DNA of 39,610 nucleotides from positions 1 through 39,610 of the forward strand of contig CALVQH010000007.1 of the NCBI GenBank assembly GCA_944358115.1, in the 5' to 3' direction. How positions within the stretch are numbered: position 1 is the stretch's first letter; the number at the start of each line of letters is the position of its first letter. The notes beneath the pieces were generated by a model. It did no database searches and was not told the DNA's origin. It saw nothing but the letters and a program-made list of their open reading frames with translations. Shown here one piece after another: positions 4,373 through 34,803 of the stretch. The position numbers were made by a program, and so were the translations under genes. Source of the DNA: an uncultured Bacilli bacterium. GTDB lineage: Bacteria > Bacillota_I > Bacilli_A > RF39 > UBA660.

Positions 4373-5892
4373 GTTTCGATTCTGTTAAATAGAATTTGGG
4401 GCTCATTTAATGTAATATCTTGTTCTAACTTGCCAAAATATTCTAAAGAATCATAATCTGTTTGTTTGGTATTTAGTTGTGTTAATATTTTTTCACTTGT
4501 TTCAGGAATAAATGGACTTAATAAAATAGCACAAATACGAATTGATTCTAATAGATTATAAAGAACAGTTGCCAATCTATCTTTTTTACTTTCATCTTTA
4601 GCAAGTGTCCATGGAGTTGTTTCATCAATGTATTTATTACATTTTCTTAGTACTTCCATAATTTCTTCTATTGCTTCATTTACTTTTAAACCATTCATTT
4701 TTTCTTCAACAATGTCTTTTAGGTTAGATACTGCATGTATTAATTCATCATCAATTTCTTCTAACACTTTTGGATTTACTGGTTTACCATCAAAATATTT
4801 GTAAGACATAGAAATCGTCCGATTAACAAGGTTTCCTAATGTATTGGCTAAATCACTATTCGTACGAGCAATTAGAGCTTCTTCAGAGAAATTACCGTCG
4901 CTGCCAAATGGTACTTCTCTTAGGGCATAATATCTTACCGCATCAACACCATAAGCATTAATGTATTCTCTTGGATCTTTATAATTTCCTAAACTCTTAG
5001 AAATCTTTCCCCCATCAATTTTTAACCAACCATGGCCAAAGACTTGTTTTGGTAAAGGTAGATCAAGAGCCATTAATAAACATGGCCAAATAATTGTGTG
5101 GAAACGAACAATTTCTTTGCCAACTAAATGAAGATCTGCTGGCCAATATTTTTTCATTAGTGTATCATCTTCGGGATAACCTAAGGTTGTAATATAATTA
5201 GATAGCGCATCTACCCATACATAGACAACATGATCTGGGTCAAAATCAACTGGGATTCCCCATTTAAAACTTGTTCTTGATACACATAAATCTTCTAGTC
5301 CTGGATTGATAAAATTATTTAACATTTCATTTTTACGCGATAATGGTAAAATAAAGTCAGGATGTTCATTATAATATTTTACTAAACGGTCTTGATATTT
5401 GGATAATTTAAAGAAGTATGCTTCTTCACTTACCATTTTAATCTCTCTACCACAATCTGGGCATTTACCATCAACTAATTGTGACTCAGTCCAAAAAGAT
5501 TCACATGGAATACAATAAAGTCCTTTATATTCGCCTTTATAAATATCCCCTTGCTCATATAACTTTTTAAATATTTTTTGAACTCTTCTAACATGATAAT
5601 CATCTGTTGTTCTCATAAAATAGTCATAAGAAATATTAAGAGATTTCCATAAATCTTTGGCATCTTCAATAATTTTATCAACATATTCTTGTGGAGTTAC
5701 ACCAGCTTCATGGGCCTTTTTCTCAATTTTTTCGCCATGTTCATCCGTTCCGGTTTGAAAGTATACATCATAACCAGTTAATCTTTTGTATCTTGCTATC
5801 GCATCCGCGATAATCGTTGTGTAACAATGGCCAATGTGAAAATTAGCACTTGGATAATAAATTGGGGTTGAAATATAAAATTTTTCTTTCAT
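4363..5892 (-). CDS. metG: Methionine-tRNA ligase, short form
   Basis: MetRS charges tRNA-Met with methionine using ATP. The class I motifs are HIGH at residues 19-22 and KISKS at 296-300, a variant of KMSKS. Cys127, Cys130, Cys144 and Cys147 form the zinc knuckle of the connective-peptide domain. At 509 residues the protein ends after the anticodon-binding helical domain and lacks the C-terminal EMAP-like tRNA-binding domain found in Bacillus MetRS (about 660 residues). It is the second gene of an operon with the HAD phosphatase (15-bp gap), under a T-box leader at 6541-6775. Confidence 0.97.
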   Translation of the reverse strand: MKEKFYISTPIYYPSANFHIGHCYTTIIADAIARYKRLTGYDVYFQTGTDEHGEKIEKKAHEAGVTPQEYVDKIIEDAKDLWKSLNISYDYFMRTTDDYHVRRVQKIFKKLYEQGDIYKGEYKGLYCIPCESFWTESQLVDGKCPDCGREIKMVSEEAYFFKLSKYQDRLVKYYNEHPDFILPLSRKNEMLNNFINPGLEDLCVSRTSFKWGIPVDFDPDHVVYVWVDALSNYITTLGYPEDDTLMKKYWPADLHLVGKEIVRFHTIIWPCLLMALDLPLPKQVFGHGWLKIDGGKISKSLGNYKDPREYINAYGVDAVRYYALREVPFGSDGNFSEEALIARTNSDLANTLGNLVNRTISMSYKYFDGKPVNPKVLEEIDDELIHAVSNLKDIVEEKMNGLKVNEAIEEIMEVLRKCNKYIDETTPWTLAKDESKKDRLATVLYNLLESIRICAILLSPFIPETSEKILTQLNTKQTDYDSLEYFGKLEQDITLNEPQILFNRIETKC

Positions 5893-5907
5893 CTTTTTTC
5901 CTTCTTT

Positions 5908-6519
5908 CTATAAAATACTTTTTAATTCATATACATTTTTGATTGTTGGCACTAATTCGTTCTTTTCACTAATTAAATAAGTAGACATTCCTAGCTCTTC
6001 TGCCGGTTTAATATCTATTAAATAATTATCGCCAACCATTAAACATTCTTTTGGGAGACGTGCTCCCATCGCTTTTTCAAAGGCTTTTTTATTTGGTTTC
6101 ATTACTTCTTCACCACTTATGATTTCTTCAAAATAATCTACAATTTGAGCCTTTTTTAAACGATTATACTGAGAAATATGAAACCAATTGGTTAATACTA
6201 CTAACTCATATTTTTGATGTAAATAAGAAAGTGTAGATATTAGTTCTTCATCTTCCTCACTCATGGAACCTAAATGTTTTAACCAACACTTAATTAGAGA
6301 GTCATCTACATTTTGATTGTATAACTGATTAAAATAATTTGTCATATTTTCTATGGTTATTTGGGTTAAATTTTCTTGATATCCTTTTTTAAATTTAGAA
6401 AGAGTTTGATCTTCGATGGTAATATGACATTCTTCTAAGGCTTTTTTTGCTGCTTCGTCATATTCTTCTTTCCAAGAAATTAAGGTATTATCTAAGTCAA
6501 ATATGATTCTTTTTAACAT
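5908..6519 (-). CDS. HAD-superfamily hydrolase
   Basis: The 203-residue protein has all HAD motifs: FDLDNTLI with Asp8 and Asp10 (motif I), LTNW (motif II), the lysine in MKPNKKAF (motif III) and GDNYLIDI (motif IV). The helical cap after motif I resembles YjjG/YfnB-type phosphatases that act on nucleotides or sugar phosphates, but the substrate is not predictable. The start ATG at 6519 has a perfect AAAGGAGG nearby. It is the first gene after a methionine-type T-box and is cotranscribed with metG, so it is probably expressed when charged tRNA-Met is low. Confidence 0.9.
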   Translation of the reverse strand: MLKRIIFDLDNTLISWKEEYDEAAKKALEECHITIEDQTLSKFKKGYQENLTQITIENMTNYFNQLYNQNVDDSLIKCWLKHLGSMSEEDEELISTLSYLHQKYELVVLTNWFHISQYNRLKKAQIVDYFEEIISGEEVMKPNKKAFEKAMGARLPKECLMVGDNYLIDIKPAEELGMSTYLISEKNELVPTIKNVYELKSIL

Positions 6520-6540
6520 GTTAACCTCCTTTAAAACAAA

Positions 6541-6775
6541 TAAAAAACCATAAACTAAGGACGAGTTTGGCTTGCCAATGCATACCTTTTTCCCGCGGTA
6601 CCACCTTAATTCATGATTTTATTATTCATGCTCTTTTACTCCAATAACGGTGAGTGGCCGTTTAAACTCCAGAGTCATCTTCCATATTACCTTGTGTTTA
6701 TTTTCATCAGCCATAAACTTTCTCTAACAACAATAATATGTACTCATTCCTTCAACATTTAAGATAGATTCATTA
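6541..6775 (-). promoter_or_regulatory. T-box leader (methionine) upstream of HAD-metG
   Basis: On the minus strand this 296-bp gap contains the conserved T-box sequence AAGGTGGTACCGCGGG (6592-6607), which captures the acceptor end of uncharged tRNA. Upstream is a stem-I region with a GAGTA element (about 6742) and candidate AUG specifier codons at 6683-6685 and 6676-6678. Between the T-box and the HAD start are a GGCAAGCC palindrome and a hairpin followed by TTTTTT (about 6541-6565) that can act as the terminator. The gene it controls, metG, makes the methionine specifier likely. I did not fold it computationally. Confidence 0.9.
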
Positions 6776-8956: not shown

Positions 8957-10219
8957 TTGAAGAATAAAGAGATAGAATTCGAAACATTACATTTTAATAA
9001 ACATAGAATACATTTTTTAATTAGTTTTGTCTGTGTAGTAATACTTCTGGTAGTATTTATTATTGGTAGAAGTCATGCAAGATATAGAGTTACAGAAAGT
9101 ATTCCATTAGTAAGCGGAACGATAAATTATAGTTTACCAGATCTAAATATTGTTGGGCTATACATTGATGGAGTAGAAGCAACAGAACTAGATAGTTCTA
9201 AAAACTATAAATTAGATACTTCTAAAAGTACATGTACTTATAAGGATAGTAGTATAATTAGTAATTTAACATTAAGTTATGATAGCAATACTAGAGCATT
9301 TAGTATTAGTCCATATACAACAAAAGGAACAAAGTGTACATTATATTTTGAAGAAAGTTCATGTGGTTCAGCTTGCCAAACAATCTTAGCTAACAAAACC
9401 ATATCAGTAAGGACAGATTTTAGTACTACTGTAAAAGAAGATACAACAGGAACAATTTACCAAGCAGAAGATGATGATGGAACAACCTACTACTATGCAG
9501 GAGCACCAACGGATAACTGGGTACAATTTGCCGGATTCTATTGGCGAATTATAAGGATTAATGGCGATGGAACAATCAGGTTAATCTATAATGGAACTAG
9601 TACGGTAACAACTGGAACAGGAACTTATATAGATTACAATGCATTTAATTCAAACTATAGACTCAGCTCCTCTGTAAGTTTTGGCTCAAGTCCTATTAAG
9701 GGAATACTTTATACATGGTATCAAAATAATTTAGTAGCTGAAGCTGATAAGATTGATAGAAATGCTGGATTTTGTAACGATAGGACATCATATAGTGAAG
9801 AAGAAACAGATGAAACTGTTTATGGAGCAAATAATAGACTAGCCAGTAATAAAGCACCAAGTTTTAAATGTGAAAACGATAGCGACTTATATACAACAAG
9901 TGGCAGTAGTAAAGGAAATAAAGCGTTACAATATCCAATAGGACTCATCACGGCAGATGAAGTATCCTATGCCGGAGGAGTATATGGACTTAGCAACTCA
10001 AATAGAAGTTATTACCTATATACAAATCAAGATTATTGGACGATGTCTCCGTTTGTCTTTACCGGTACTTGGGCTTGGGGTTTTTATGTGGATTCGTCTG
10101 GCTACTTCACTCAACAAGGCGTGCAAATCTCCTATGGTGTTCGACCTGTTATTAATCTTTCGGCAGATGTTATAATTACTGGTTCTGGTACGATATCTGA
10201 CCCTTATGTTGTGCAATAG
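8957..10219 (+). CDS. Membrane-anchored surface protein with C-type-lectin-like C-terminus
   Basis: The 420-residue protein has an N-terminal membrane segment (about 18-37) and an extracellular part. After a beta-rich N-terminal region, two cysteine-bearing stretches (CxxxC near 135) lead into a domain starting VQFAGFYWRIIRINGDGTIRL and ending YWTMSP, then WGFYVDSSGYF, then GVRPVINL. This W/YW...SP...SG...GVRP pattern is that of the C-type-lectin or formylglycine-enzyme-like fold used as a display domain, also seen in DUF6273-type proteins. Start: TTG 8957, with GTAGGAA upstream. Codon use changes abruptly at about 10040, from AGT/AGA/GGA/TTA to TCG/TCT/GGC/GTG/CGA. This C-terminal segment has a relative at 33586-33763. 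The ligand is unknown. A divergent XRE gene probably regulates it. Confidence 0.8.
   Translation: MKNKEIEFETLHFNKHRIHFLISFVCVVILLVVFIIGRSHARYRVTESIPLVSGTINYSLPDLNIVGLYIDGVEATELDSSKNYKLDTSKSTCTYKDSSIISNLTLSYDSNTRAFSISPYTTKGTKCTLYFEESSCGSACQTILANKTISVRTDFSTTVKEDTTGTIYQAEDDDGTTYYYAGAPTDNWVQFAGFYWRIIRINGDGTIRLIYNGTSTVTTGTGTYIDYNAFNSNYRLSSSVSFGSSPIKGILYTWYQNNLVAEADKIDRNAGFCNDRTSYSEEETDETVYGANNRLASNKAPSFKCENDSDLYTTSGSSKGNKALQYPIGLITADEVSYAGGVYGLSNSNRSYYLYTNQDYWTMSPFVFTGTWAWGFYVDSSGYFTQQGVQISYGVRPVINLSADVIITGSGTISDPYVVQ
10040..10219 (+). other. Candidate variable region (C-type-lectin-like tail)
   Basis: This segment encodes the last 59 or so residues of the surface protein. It aligns at DNA level with 33586-33763. 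In two ungapped blocks (10052-10069 and 10085-10111, 45 bases) I count 14 differences, 10 of them where the other copy has A. That skew is expected for adenine-directed mutagenesis by diversity-generating retroelements. One codon-length gap on each side and four non-A changes show that the other copy is not its direct template. Confidence 0.4.
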
Positions 10220-31932: not shown

Positions 31933-31988
31933 TTTTTTAAATAACTAATTTGTGCTTTTGTCATAAAATATCTTAGAGGAGGATGTTT

Positions 31989-33347
31989 ATGGCTAAAAAG
32001 GTTGTTATTGATCCTGGGCATGGAGGAGAAGATCCTGGAACAAGTGCCAATGGGATTGTCGAAAAAGATTATACTTTAAAGATAAGTGAATATATGGCCG
32101 ATCGTCTAACAGAACTAGGAATAGAAAATGCTTTAACTAGGGATAGTGATGTTACACTAGATTCAACTACAAGACCAAAGACTGCACAAAGTTTATTTGG
32201 TACGGGTAGTGATGTTATTTTGGTATCTAATCATATTAATGCTGGTGGTGGTGATGGAGCCGAAATTATTTATGCTTTAAGAAATAGTGATGCTTTATCA
32301 AGTAAAATTGCTAGTGAATTTATTAAATCTGGACAAAATGTAAGAAAGTATTATCAAAGAAGACTTCCAAGTAATTCTAGTAAAGATTATTATTATATTA
32401 TAAGAGAAACTCCAAATAATGAATCAATTATTGTTGAATACGGTTTTGCTGATTCAACTGGGGATGATGTGAATCAAATTAAAAATAATTGGGAGGAACT
32501 TGCAGAGGCTGTTGTTCGTGCTTTAGCAGATTATATTGGTGTAGCATATATTCCACCAGAGGGAGCAGAAGGTAATTATTATACTGTTAAAGCTGGAGAT
32601 ACTTTATATGGAATTGCTAGTAAATATGGAATTAGTGTAGATGAGTTGAAAGCGGCGAATAATTTATCTAGTAATACTCTTACGATTGGAAAAGTTTTAG
32701 TTATTCCTCAAGTAGAGGAACCAGAAACACCAGATGAAAATATATATACTGTAAAAAGTGGTGATACTCTATATTCTATTGCTAATAAATATGGTATGAC
32801 AGTTAATGAATTAAAGGCATTAAATAATTTAACAAGCAATACTTTATCAATTGGTCAAAAGTTAGTAGTTAGTGAAGGAAATGCGGCAACTCTTGATACT
32901 TATACGGTCAAGAGTGGTGATACTTTGTATTCAATTGCAAATAAGTATGGTTTAACTGTGAATGAACTTAAAAGTTTAAATAACTTAACAAGTGATCTTT
33001 TAAGTATTGGTCAAGTTTTAAATGTAAGCAATAGCGCTGTTACCCCTACACCAACTAATACTTACACTGTTAAGAGTGGAGATTCTTTATATAGTATAGC
33101 TAAACAGTATGGAGTTACTGTAGATGCTTTAAAGAGTGCAAATGGTAAAACATCTAATTTACTTTCTATTGGAGAAGTTCTAGTTATTCCAACAACAACC
33201 ACTTCTACGAGAACTTATATTGTTAAAGCTGGAGATAGTTTATGGAAGATTGCTACGAATTATGGGGTTAGTGTAAATGCATTAAAACAAGCAAATGGTC
33301 TTTCAAGCGATTTACTTTCTATTGGTCAAGTATTAGTTATTCCTTAA
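31989..33347 (+). CDS. N-acetylmuramoyl-L-alanine amidase with five LysM repeats, no signal peptide
   Basis: The N-terminal Amidase_3 domain (about 1-190) has the zinc ligands VIDPGHGG, the Glu in VEKD, SNHINA, and the catalytic Glu in IVEYGF. It cleaves the bond between muramic acid and L-alanine. Five LysM repeats follow, each starting Y-T-V-K-x-G-D-[ST]-L and ending with a [VI]L-x-[IV] strand, at about residues 197, 250, 302, 357 and 408. ATG 31989 follows AGGAGG at good spacing, so MF before it is not part of the protein. There is no signal peptide, unlike secreted autolysins. Export by lysis or assembly on spores from the mother-cell side (as for SafA or CwlJ) is possible. Confidence 0.93.
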   Translation: MAKKVVIDPGHGGEDPGTSANGIVEKDYTLKISEYMADRLTELGIENALTRDSDVTLDSTTRPKTAQSLFGTGSDVILVSNHINAGGGDGAEIIYALRNSDALSSKIASEFIKSGQNVRKYYQRRLPSNSSKDYYYIIRETPNNESIIVEYGFADSTGDDVNQIKNNWEELAEAVVRALADYIGVAYIPPEGAEGNYYTVKAGDTLYGIASKYGISVDELKAANNLSSNTLTIGKVLVIPQVEEPETPDENIYTVKSGDTLYSIANKYGMTVNELKALNNLTSNTLSIGQKLVVSEGNAATLDTYTVKSGDTLYSIANKYGLTVNELKSLNNLTSDLLSIGQVLNVSNSAVTPTPTNTYTVKSGDSLYSIAKQYGVTVDALKSANGKTSNLLSIGEVLVIPTTTTSTRTYIVKAGDSLWKIATNYGVSVNALKQANGLSSDLLSIGQVLVIP

Positions 33348-33376
33348 TCTCAAGATACAATCTTGGGATTGTTTTT
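33346..33376 (+). terminator. Amidase terminator
   Basis: AATCTCAAGAT (33346-33356) pairs with ATCTTGGGATT (33360-33370), followed by GTTTTT, directly after the stop codon. Confidence 0.8.
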
Positions 33377-33585
33377 GGAAAAATGTGATAAAACACATAA
33401 AAATAACTGGAATTTTGTGATGAAATGCTTAAAAATAGTTAGAAGAATGTGATATAAACGTTGATTTTAACTGGATTTTGGTGAAGTTATAGAAATATTT
33501 TTTAGTAATGATATGGATAAAAATTTGTTAATAATTATATATTAGTTAGTATTATAATAATATGGATTAATCTATTAATATGCAG
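33376..33585. other. AT-rich intergenic stretch
   Basis: No gene is visible. Short imperfect repeats of TAACTGGATTTTGTGA type occur twice (around 33404 and 33468). A TATAAT at 33553-33558 lies about 30 bp before the lectin-like tail fragment, but without a well-placed -35. Confidence 0.4.
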
Positions 33586-33763
33586 CATGTCTCCGTATAA
33601 CTATAACGGCAACGCTAACGTGTTCAATGTGAATTCGTCTGGCAACCTCAACTACGGCAACGTGTATTGGGCTGAGTCTGGTGTGCGTCCAGTTATTAAT
33701 ATAGCATCAAATGTTACGATTACTGGTTCTGGAACCATATCTGACCCTTATGTTGTTCAATGA
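33586..33763 (+). pseudogene. Isolated C-type-lectin-like tail (gene remnant or template-like cassette)
   Basis: The plus strand reads SMSPYNYNGNANVFNV, then NSSGNLNYG and GVRPVINI, ending ITGSGTISDPYVVQ and a TGA stop. It is homologous to the last 59 or so residues of the protein at 8957-10219, with the same final motif. Nothing upstream encodes the rest of that protein, and ATG 33587 has no ribosome-binding site. Asparagine is encoded mostly by AAC (seven AAC, two AAT in 28 codons), unlike the AAT-rich genome, and local GC is higher. Such AAC density is typical of template repeats in diversity-generating retroelements. A terminator follows at 33768-33796. Confidence 0.75.
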
Positions 33764-33767
33764 AATG

Positions 33768-33796
33768 AAATAGCTTGTAACATAGCTATTTTTTTG
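33768..33796 (+). terminator. Terminator after the lectin-like tail
   Basis: AAATAGCT (33768-33775) and AGCTATTT (33784-33791) form an 8-bp stem followed by TTTTT. Confidence 0.75.
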
Positions 33797-33820
33797 ATAT
33801 ATTTTTATTGGTGATATGAT

Positions 33821-34279
33821 ATGAAAATTAGAGGATTTGAAGTTGCAAAAGGATATGAAGATAAAGATATTCATTTACCGGTTAGAAAAACCAAATATGC
33901 AGCAGCATATGATATTGAAGCGGCAGAGGATGTTGTTATTCCTCCATTTAAATTAGGATGTAAACCAACTTTTATTCCTACTGGTTTAAAAGCATATTGT
34001 TTAGAAGATGAGTATTATATGCTTGTTAGTCGTAGTAGTGGGCCTAAAAAGGGTCTTTTAATGAGTAATGGAATTGGTATTATTGATCGTGATTATTATG
34101 GAAATATAGAAAATGATGGACATTTTTATTTTCAATATTATAATGTTACAGATCATGATATTATTATTCATAAGGGAGAAGCAATTGGCCAAGTTGTTTT
34201 TCAAAAGTTTTTATTATGTGATAATGATAATGCTGATGGTGTAAGAACTGGAGGATTTGGCTCTACTGATCAAAAATAA
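33821..34279 (+). CDS. dut: dUTP diphosphatase
   Basis: Dut hydrolyses dUTP to dUMP, keeping uracil out of DNA and feeding dTMP synthesis. The five trimeric-dUTPase motifs are present in order: AAYDIEA, RSSGPKKG, GIIDRDYYG, GEAIGQVVF and RTGGFGST. The 152-residue length is normal. It stands alone between the lectin-like remnant and the convergent CwlJ/SleB-type gene. Confidence 0.95.
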   Translation: MKIRGFEVAKGYEDKDIHLPVRKTKYAAAYDIEAAEDVVIPPFKLGCKPTFIPTGLKAYCLEDEYYMLVSRSSGPKKGLLMSNGIGIIDRDYYGNIENDGHFYFQYYNVTDHDIIIHKGEAIGQVVFQKFLLCDNDNADGVRTGGFGSTDQK

Positions 34280-34303
34280 AAAAGACCATTTTAGATCTTT
34301 TAG
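34278..34303. terminator. Bidirectional terminator between dut and the cell-wall hydrolase
   Basis: AAAAGA (34280-34285) pairs with TCTTTT (34296-34301) around a 10-base loop, with A- and T-rich flanks suited to both directions. Confidence 0.5.
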
Positions 34304-34719
34304 TATAATTCTTGACATTCGCCACTTTGAGGACGATAAAAACAATGATTCTTATATTTACCTGCTAGAGGTTGGCTATACCAAGTAGAAGTACAACTAT
34401 TGGAACCGGGAGCATAGAACCATAAGGAATGCGTTGCAGGATAATAATATTCTCCTCTTAAAGTCCTTTGAGCTAAATTTTTTTCAGCTGTTGTTGCAGA
34501 ACCATAAAAAAGAGAAGAATTGGTTCCTACAAATTGATTAGGTTGATAAATAGCATCTTCGATACTATCAATATTTTTGAATGTATAACAATCAGCGATC
34601 ACGCGATTTACAACGACATTTCCAACCATAAGCATGCCTAAATCCCCTTCTGTTTGGGCTTCAGCTCTCATAATTCTTGCTAATAAATCAAGTTCTTTTG
34701 TCGTATAATTTACTAACAT
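34300..34719 (-). CDS. CwlJ/SleB-family cell-wall hydrolase
   Basis: The 139-residue protein is a stand-alone Hydrolase_2 domain: LLARIMRAEAQTEG with the catalytic Glu near 19, MVGNVVVNRV and YQPNQFVG, then the C-terminal region ending CFYRPQSGEC. In spore formers this family degrades cortex peptidoglycan during germination. The absence of a signal peptide and of an N-terminal binding domain is like CwlJ, which is placed on the spore from the mother cell, and unlike SleB. The start ATG 34719 is preceded by TTAGGTG. The role in germination is inferred. Confidence 0.88.
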   Translation of the reverse strand: MLVNYTTKELDLLARIMRAEAQTEGDLGMLMVGNVVVNRVIADCYTFKNIDSIEDAIYQPNQFVGTNSSLFYGSATTAEKNLAQRTLRGEYYYPATHSLWFYAPGSNSCTSTWYSQPLAGKYKNHCFYRPQSGECQELY

Positions 34720-34803
34720 AATTAAATCACCTAATTTATTATATGAAAATGCTTTTAAATTGGAATAAATTATGATATAATTTATTTGTCTGTTAGGTGA
34801 TTT

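Follow-up and report, generated by a model that had tools for sequence, protein, structure and literature searches.

Organization and composition of the cassette

A 178-bp piece of DNA, at 33586-33763 of the window analysed here (the whole stretch of 39,610 nucleotides from an uncultured gut bacterium of the Bacilli), raises the question of how a sequence can look like a template repeat of a diversity-generating retroelement (DGR) at one end and like a surface-protein gene at the other. A first-pass annotation saw in it an unmutated template repeat, perhaps serving another target, a relic of a target gene, or a donor cassette for recombination. Based on sequence comparisons with related genomes, we consider it very probable that this cassette is a deletion scar, in which a template RNA gene, represented by its 5' end, would have become joined to the last part of a surface-protein target gene that was once its neighbour (Table 1).

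The layout reported in the first-pass annotation agrees with our inspection of the sequence: the reading frame runs uninterrupted from the ATG at 33587 to the TGA at 33761-33763, has no Shine-Dalgarno sequence, is preceded by a TATAAT box and is followed by a hairpin (AATAGCT/AGCTATT plus T7). This hairpin forms in the RNA fold and is weak in G-C; a strict terminator scan did not call it, because it contains too few G-C pairs. The reported packing with AAC codons was likewise borne out. The fraction of AAC/AAT in the first 18 core codons is 0.33; the corresponding values are 0.275 ± 0.077 for template cores (n = 65) and 0.067 ± 0.074 for target-gene variable regions (n = 30), and the richness of this front part is not due to chance. 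In the last third of the core (12 codons) the fraction is 0.25, compared with 0.473 ± 0.097 in templates and 0.153 ± 0.084 in variable regions; this part is not template-like and stands nearer to the variable regions.

The cassette possesses the promoter box, the leader and the AAC core of a template RNA gene, and has neither the closing stem nor the conserved 3' region of such an RNA. A covariance model of that region (R1) gave no match near the cassette, and both the fold and the model search indicated that the 3' partner strand of the leader, with which intact copies pair, is missing. As for a target gene, the signal and the body expected 5' of the variable repeat are also absent, and the promoter box and leader of a template gene occupy their place.

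Table 1. Features of the cassette, of its flanks and of the intact target gene in the window.
Feature	Position	Strand	Basis
DGR target gene, intact, elsewhere in the window (core of its variable region, 10046-10144)	8957..10219	+	3' flank of 340 nt (Mfd side), 84% to the right flank of the G005 fusion
LysM amidase, left flank of the proposed deletion	31983..33347	+	Pfam Amidase_3 and LysM; 83% to G010 over 1.4 kb
-10 box TATAAT of the template RNA gene	33553..33558	+	Sequence; most of the 77 template genes have such a TATAAT-type box a few nt 5' of their leader
Leader GGATTAATCTA; in intact template RNAs, the 5' side of the closing stem (9 bp)	33564..33574	+	Unpaired in the cassette
Template-repeat (TR) core, AAC/AAT codons unmutated	33590..33655	+	AAY fraction; 84% to the G010 template over 33589-33655; A-only differences with C37
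Junction zone, template/target gene	33656..33678	+	G010 template-side match stops at 33655, target-side match begins at 33679; agreement with the C37 variable region stops at 33655
3' tail of a DGR target gene, putatively lost; ends with the stop TGA	33679..33763	+	G010 alignment, 82%; tail matches the C41 target gene
Terminator-like hairpin of the putatively lost target gene	33769..33795	+	Fold; homologue in G010 behind the complete target gene; gene-less remnant in G007
dUTPase (dut), right flank of the proposed deletion	33821..34279	+	Pfam dUTPase; synteny in the genus

Related genomes contain both parents of the fusion

The same locus of G010, a genome of the same genus, carries, on the same strand, the amidase gene, a complete template, other genes, a complete target gene and dut. 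The window aligns with it in three blocks: 31949-33349 with G010 496-1896 (83%), 33589-33655 with the G010 template core at 1987-2056 (84%), and 33679-34794, spanning the target tail, dut and a hydrolase gene, with G010 5555-6657 (82%). About 3.5 kb of G010, which hold the complete tail of the template and the complete target gene, are absent from the window, and the crossover would lie somewhere within the junction zone. The leader of the G010 template differs from that of the cassette; therefore, G010 demonstrates the arrangement and is not a proven orthologue of the lost template. A complete target gene also precedes dut in G001, and a leftover terminator stands alone at this place in G007.

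According to the first-pass annotation, finding the upstream part of a normal gene at this locus in relatives would reduce the cassette to a plain pseudogene. Such genes do exist in G010 and G001, and the cassette retains the target-gene tail and the terminator. However, a target gene deprived of its front, with AAC codons arising by chance or from overwriting of its variable region (VR) by a fresh unmutated copy, does not explain the left half, which is the end of a template gene: the sequence 5' of the core consists of the -10 box and leader of a template gene instead of target-gene sequence, and a retrohomed copy would lack that promoter, as it sits 5' of the transcript. We thus regard a plain pseudogene as very improbable. 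The view of the cassette as a target-gene relic holds for about 33679-33763 and fails for the left part, and the view of an unmutated template repeat applies to 33564-33655 and not to the remainder, which is a target-gene tail without a 3' RNA region.

Fusions of this type are recurrent: we found three of them, independent of one another and in three species, against about 77 intact templates. The second lies between spoVT and mfd in G005, and its precursor is preserved in G014, in the order spoVT, template, nuclease, template, target and mfd; the G005 fusion aligns with G014 with 82% identity over 775 nt on the left side and with 77% over 1002 nt on the right side. The third occurs in G033, and the orthologous place in G005 contains an intact template. 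A precursor with an orthologous template is available for the G014/G005 case only. In our window, the 340 nt 3' of the intact target gene, on the Mfd side, are 84% identical to the right flank of the G005 fusion.

The recurrence also bears on the possibility of an assembly artefact, in which the assembler would have jumped from a TR core to a VR core via shared k-mers and the missing 3.5 kb would still exist. The assembly comprises 69 contigs, several of which end near templates or variable regions, and both TR and VR are repeats. Nevertheless, we judge an artefact quite unlikely: besides the occurrence of the same type of fusion in three species, the remaining contigs of the genome do not carry the skipped piece, the closest paralogues of the target gene and its neighbours being 68-72% identical over their longer stretches, versus 82-83% for the orthologous flanks; the six 3' RNA regions of the genome each have their own leader; and TR and VR differ at so many A positions that they share few long exact k-mers.

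The simplest mechanism for a scar of this kind would be a deletion between direct repeats. In an ancestral locus with the amidase gene, a template RNA gene (TR), other genes, the target gene (VR) and dut on a single strand, the TR core, of ca. 100 nt, and the homologous VR core would recombine. The template RNA gene would thereby lose its 3' half and the target gene its body, along with the intervening genes, and the template promoter, the leader and the unmutated core would end up joined to the last codons, stop and terminator of the target. An origin by retro-insertion of cDNA is disfavoured, given that the fusion includes the template promoter, located 5' of the expected start of the transcript, and that its core is unmutated. 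We also discarded a reciprocal exchange, because a search for its other product, a target front joined to a template tail, found none.

Templates and variable regions in the genome

Searching the genome with the cassette retrieved 19 places that, once read in context, formed two classes. The first comprises AAC-rich orphan cassettes, of which contig C30 has four and C51 and C42 have one each, besides the cassette itself; the second comprises the 3' ends of long surface-protein genes. Codon alignments of six of the better orphan-cassette/gene-end pairs revealed that 81 out of 132 differences occur at an A of the template (27% expected; p = 1e-16), with merely 16 differences in the opposite sense. 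A C-type lectin fold, implied by the lectin tail of the first-pass annotation, is no more than a possible assignment: the best Pfam matches of the intact target genes, DUF6273 and Lcl_C, are both sub-threshold, and a structure model reached a pLDDT of only 31.

As already stated in the first-pass annotation, many non-A differences rule out the cassette as the direct template of the 10-kb gene. The C37 variable region agrees with the cassette at all non-A positions over the first 66 nt and differs from it there at 11 positions, all of them A (p = 7e-8). This agreement ends at 33655, the same point where the template-side match of G010 ends. The probable source of the C37 variable region is the intact template that gave rise to the left part of the cassette, or else a sister copy of it. 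A template for another target, one of the roles initially envisaged, would therefore have existed here or as a sister copy, and is not the present cassette, devoid of the 3' RNA region; we found nothing in support of a donor cassette for recombination.

On contig C30 (L012:2460-5730), two copies of a putative nuclease gene, which resembles the PDDEXK/DUF1016 type, are interspersed among four template RNA genes. A target gene follows this cluster on the same strand, an arrangement prone to the same TR-VR deletion. Separately, across the genus, 1559 out of 2567 mutual mismatches between close templates are at A (a raw count), as if mutated copies sometimes overwrote the templates themselves.

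Stand-alone template RNA genes in the genus

Relaxed motif scans of selected loci identified 77 templates, one of which duplicates another with a shift in position. Their leaders are of the TTAATCT type and, in most cases, closely follow a TATAAT-type box. Of the 36 genomes of the genus, 24 contained the strict pattern and none contained its reversed control. The AAC core is followed by a conserved region of ca. 145 nt, whose consensus fold contains 27 pairs, 21 of them with compensatory changes (55 sequences). Additionally, the leader and the 3' region form a 9-bp stem enclosing the template, each pair being held in 60-62 of 62 sequences, although support for this stem comes mainly from its 3' strand because the leader was used for sequence selection. 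Single-sequence folding energies of the cassette and of intact templates do not stand out from those of shuffled sequences (z about -1), and the structural case for a template RNA rests on covariation, not on folding energy. The predicted RNAs would have their 5' end at GGTTAATC and their 3' end at the last hairpin.

The 3' region had no match in Rfam. Our covariance model of this region recognized 32 of the 36 genomes of the genus, with 2-25 matches per genome and 223 in total (table sum). Under stricter filters, 145 sampled genomes of the family yielded the RNA only in the two that belong to this genus and in one of another genus. Genome G030 has 25 matches, at least seven of which lie within about 3.1 kb (C20:22674-25783; L311 = G030:C20:20000-26118).

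A DGR reverse transcriptase without an adjacent template

The genome contains a MutS_I-bAvd-RT operon on contig C6. The IGxxxSQ motif is a hallmark of DGR RTs; the RT of this operon (RVT_1, 67.8 bits) carries the motif IGNMTSQ and, with the accompanying bAvd, is of the DGR type. The adjacent gene was recognized as Avd by NCBIfam Avd (3e-9) and PHROG 'Avd protein of DGR' (2e-11), and its bAvd match fell just short of the cut-off (39.4 against 40 bits). This RT is frameshifted in an A7 run and stops at 336 aa (L027:2944-4122 = contig C6:5443-6621), versus about 405-417 aa in most congeners. The remaining frame is homologous and open, and the frameshift may reflect either a real loss, with an inactive operon, or an assembly error. 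The closest named RT relatives are from metagenome genomes of Bacilli, including Candidatus Caccenecus avistercoris, with 82-92% identity in the best segment. Some genomes of the genus (G029, G014 and others) also contain a second DGR-like RT, 46% identical, with an AAC-rich repeat nearby (L103, L104).

We found no template RNA beside this RT or at 21 loci of close RTs; therefore, the system is a DGR variant and does not follow the classical layout, with the template beside the RT. More distant RTs, with 40-58% identity (L247, L249, L252, L254 and L255), are preceded by 1-4 template RNAs, suggesting that templates moved from RT-adjacent to dispersed sites in the genus. Locus L247:482-1791, with four matches of the template RNA family 5' of a 56%-identical RT, is an intermediate between both arrangements. 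Across the 36 genomes, a close RT is present in 23 of the 32 with template RNAs and in 0 of the 4 without them (Fisher p = 0.012); the association is only modest, because nine genomes, some of them incomplete, have template RNAs and no close RT.

We consider it likely, judging from these genomic arrangements, that the genus uses a dispersed library of templates in trans. One template-less RT operon would serve the 2-25 structured, stand-alone template RNA genes of a genome, each diversifying some surface-protein genes, and adjacent template/target pairs would be lost together through TR-VR deletion, the cassette being one of the scars.

Fate of the cassette

In BPP-1, the spacer 3' of the TR folds, recruits RT-Avd and primes cDNA synthesis (PMC12875486). 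By analogy, the cassette is probably dead as a template, because it has lost the part of the RNA that should recruit the RT, and it may still be transcribed into a short RNA. It could instead be argued that it represents a second type of template RNA gene, still functional, in which a target-gene tail replaces the usual 3' region. Its promoter box and leader are intact, as is the unmutated AAC core; such fusions occur in three species; and the C37 variable region matches its first 66 nt perfectly outside A. Yet this appears highly unlikely to us, considering the role of the BPP-1 spacer, the absence of both the covarying 3' region and the closing stem, and that the C37 match ends exactly where the target-derived part begins. 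A loss of template function thus seems the better reading.

Comparison with known systems

In the open literature, our searches brought up neither a template-less RT accompanied by dispersed, stand-alone template RNA genes nor a TR-VR deletion scar. One large DGR survey looks for repeats around the RT, and states that remote targets are missed (PMC8144416); because such surveys scan repeats around the RT, dispersed templates would also escape them. The template RNA model is searchable on its own, without an RT, and the genomes provide an evolutionary series from RT-adjacent to dispersed templates. Likewise, the natural deletions reveal which parts of the RNA are lost by a dying template, and expose a cost of placing a template beside its target, since a direct-repeat deletion takes both.

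As in DGRs of the BPP-1 type, we found an IGxxxSQ RT, an adjacent bAvd, an AAC-rich template, A-directed differences in 3'-terminal variable repeats and a structured RNA 3' of the template. Unlike in them, the RT has no adjacent template RNA, and there are 2-25 stand-alone template RNA genes per genome, with a 9-bp enclosing stem and, mostly, a TATAAT-type box. Some DGRs with several templates were reported in a survey of many genomes (PMC6642488). In Thiohalocapsa PB-PSB1, incomplete DGR loci without RT or TR, as well as degenerate loci, were described and diversification in trans was proposed; these differ from our system in comprising several transposon-shaped RT loci, and the available part of that report describes no family of stand-alone template RNA genes (PMC10907252). 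In Treponema denticola and cyanobacteria, one DGR has many target genes around the genome, encoding remote variable proteins (PMC4891356, PMC7517822). The many remote targets are shared with the system described here, but the template of those DGRs resides at the core locus, whereas in this genus the templates are dispersed too.
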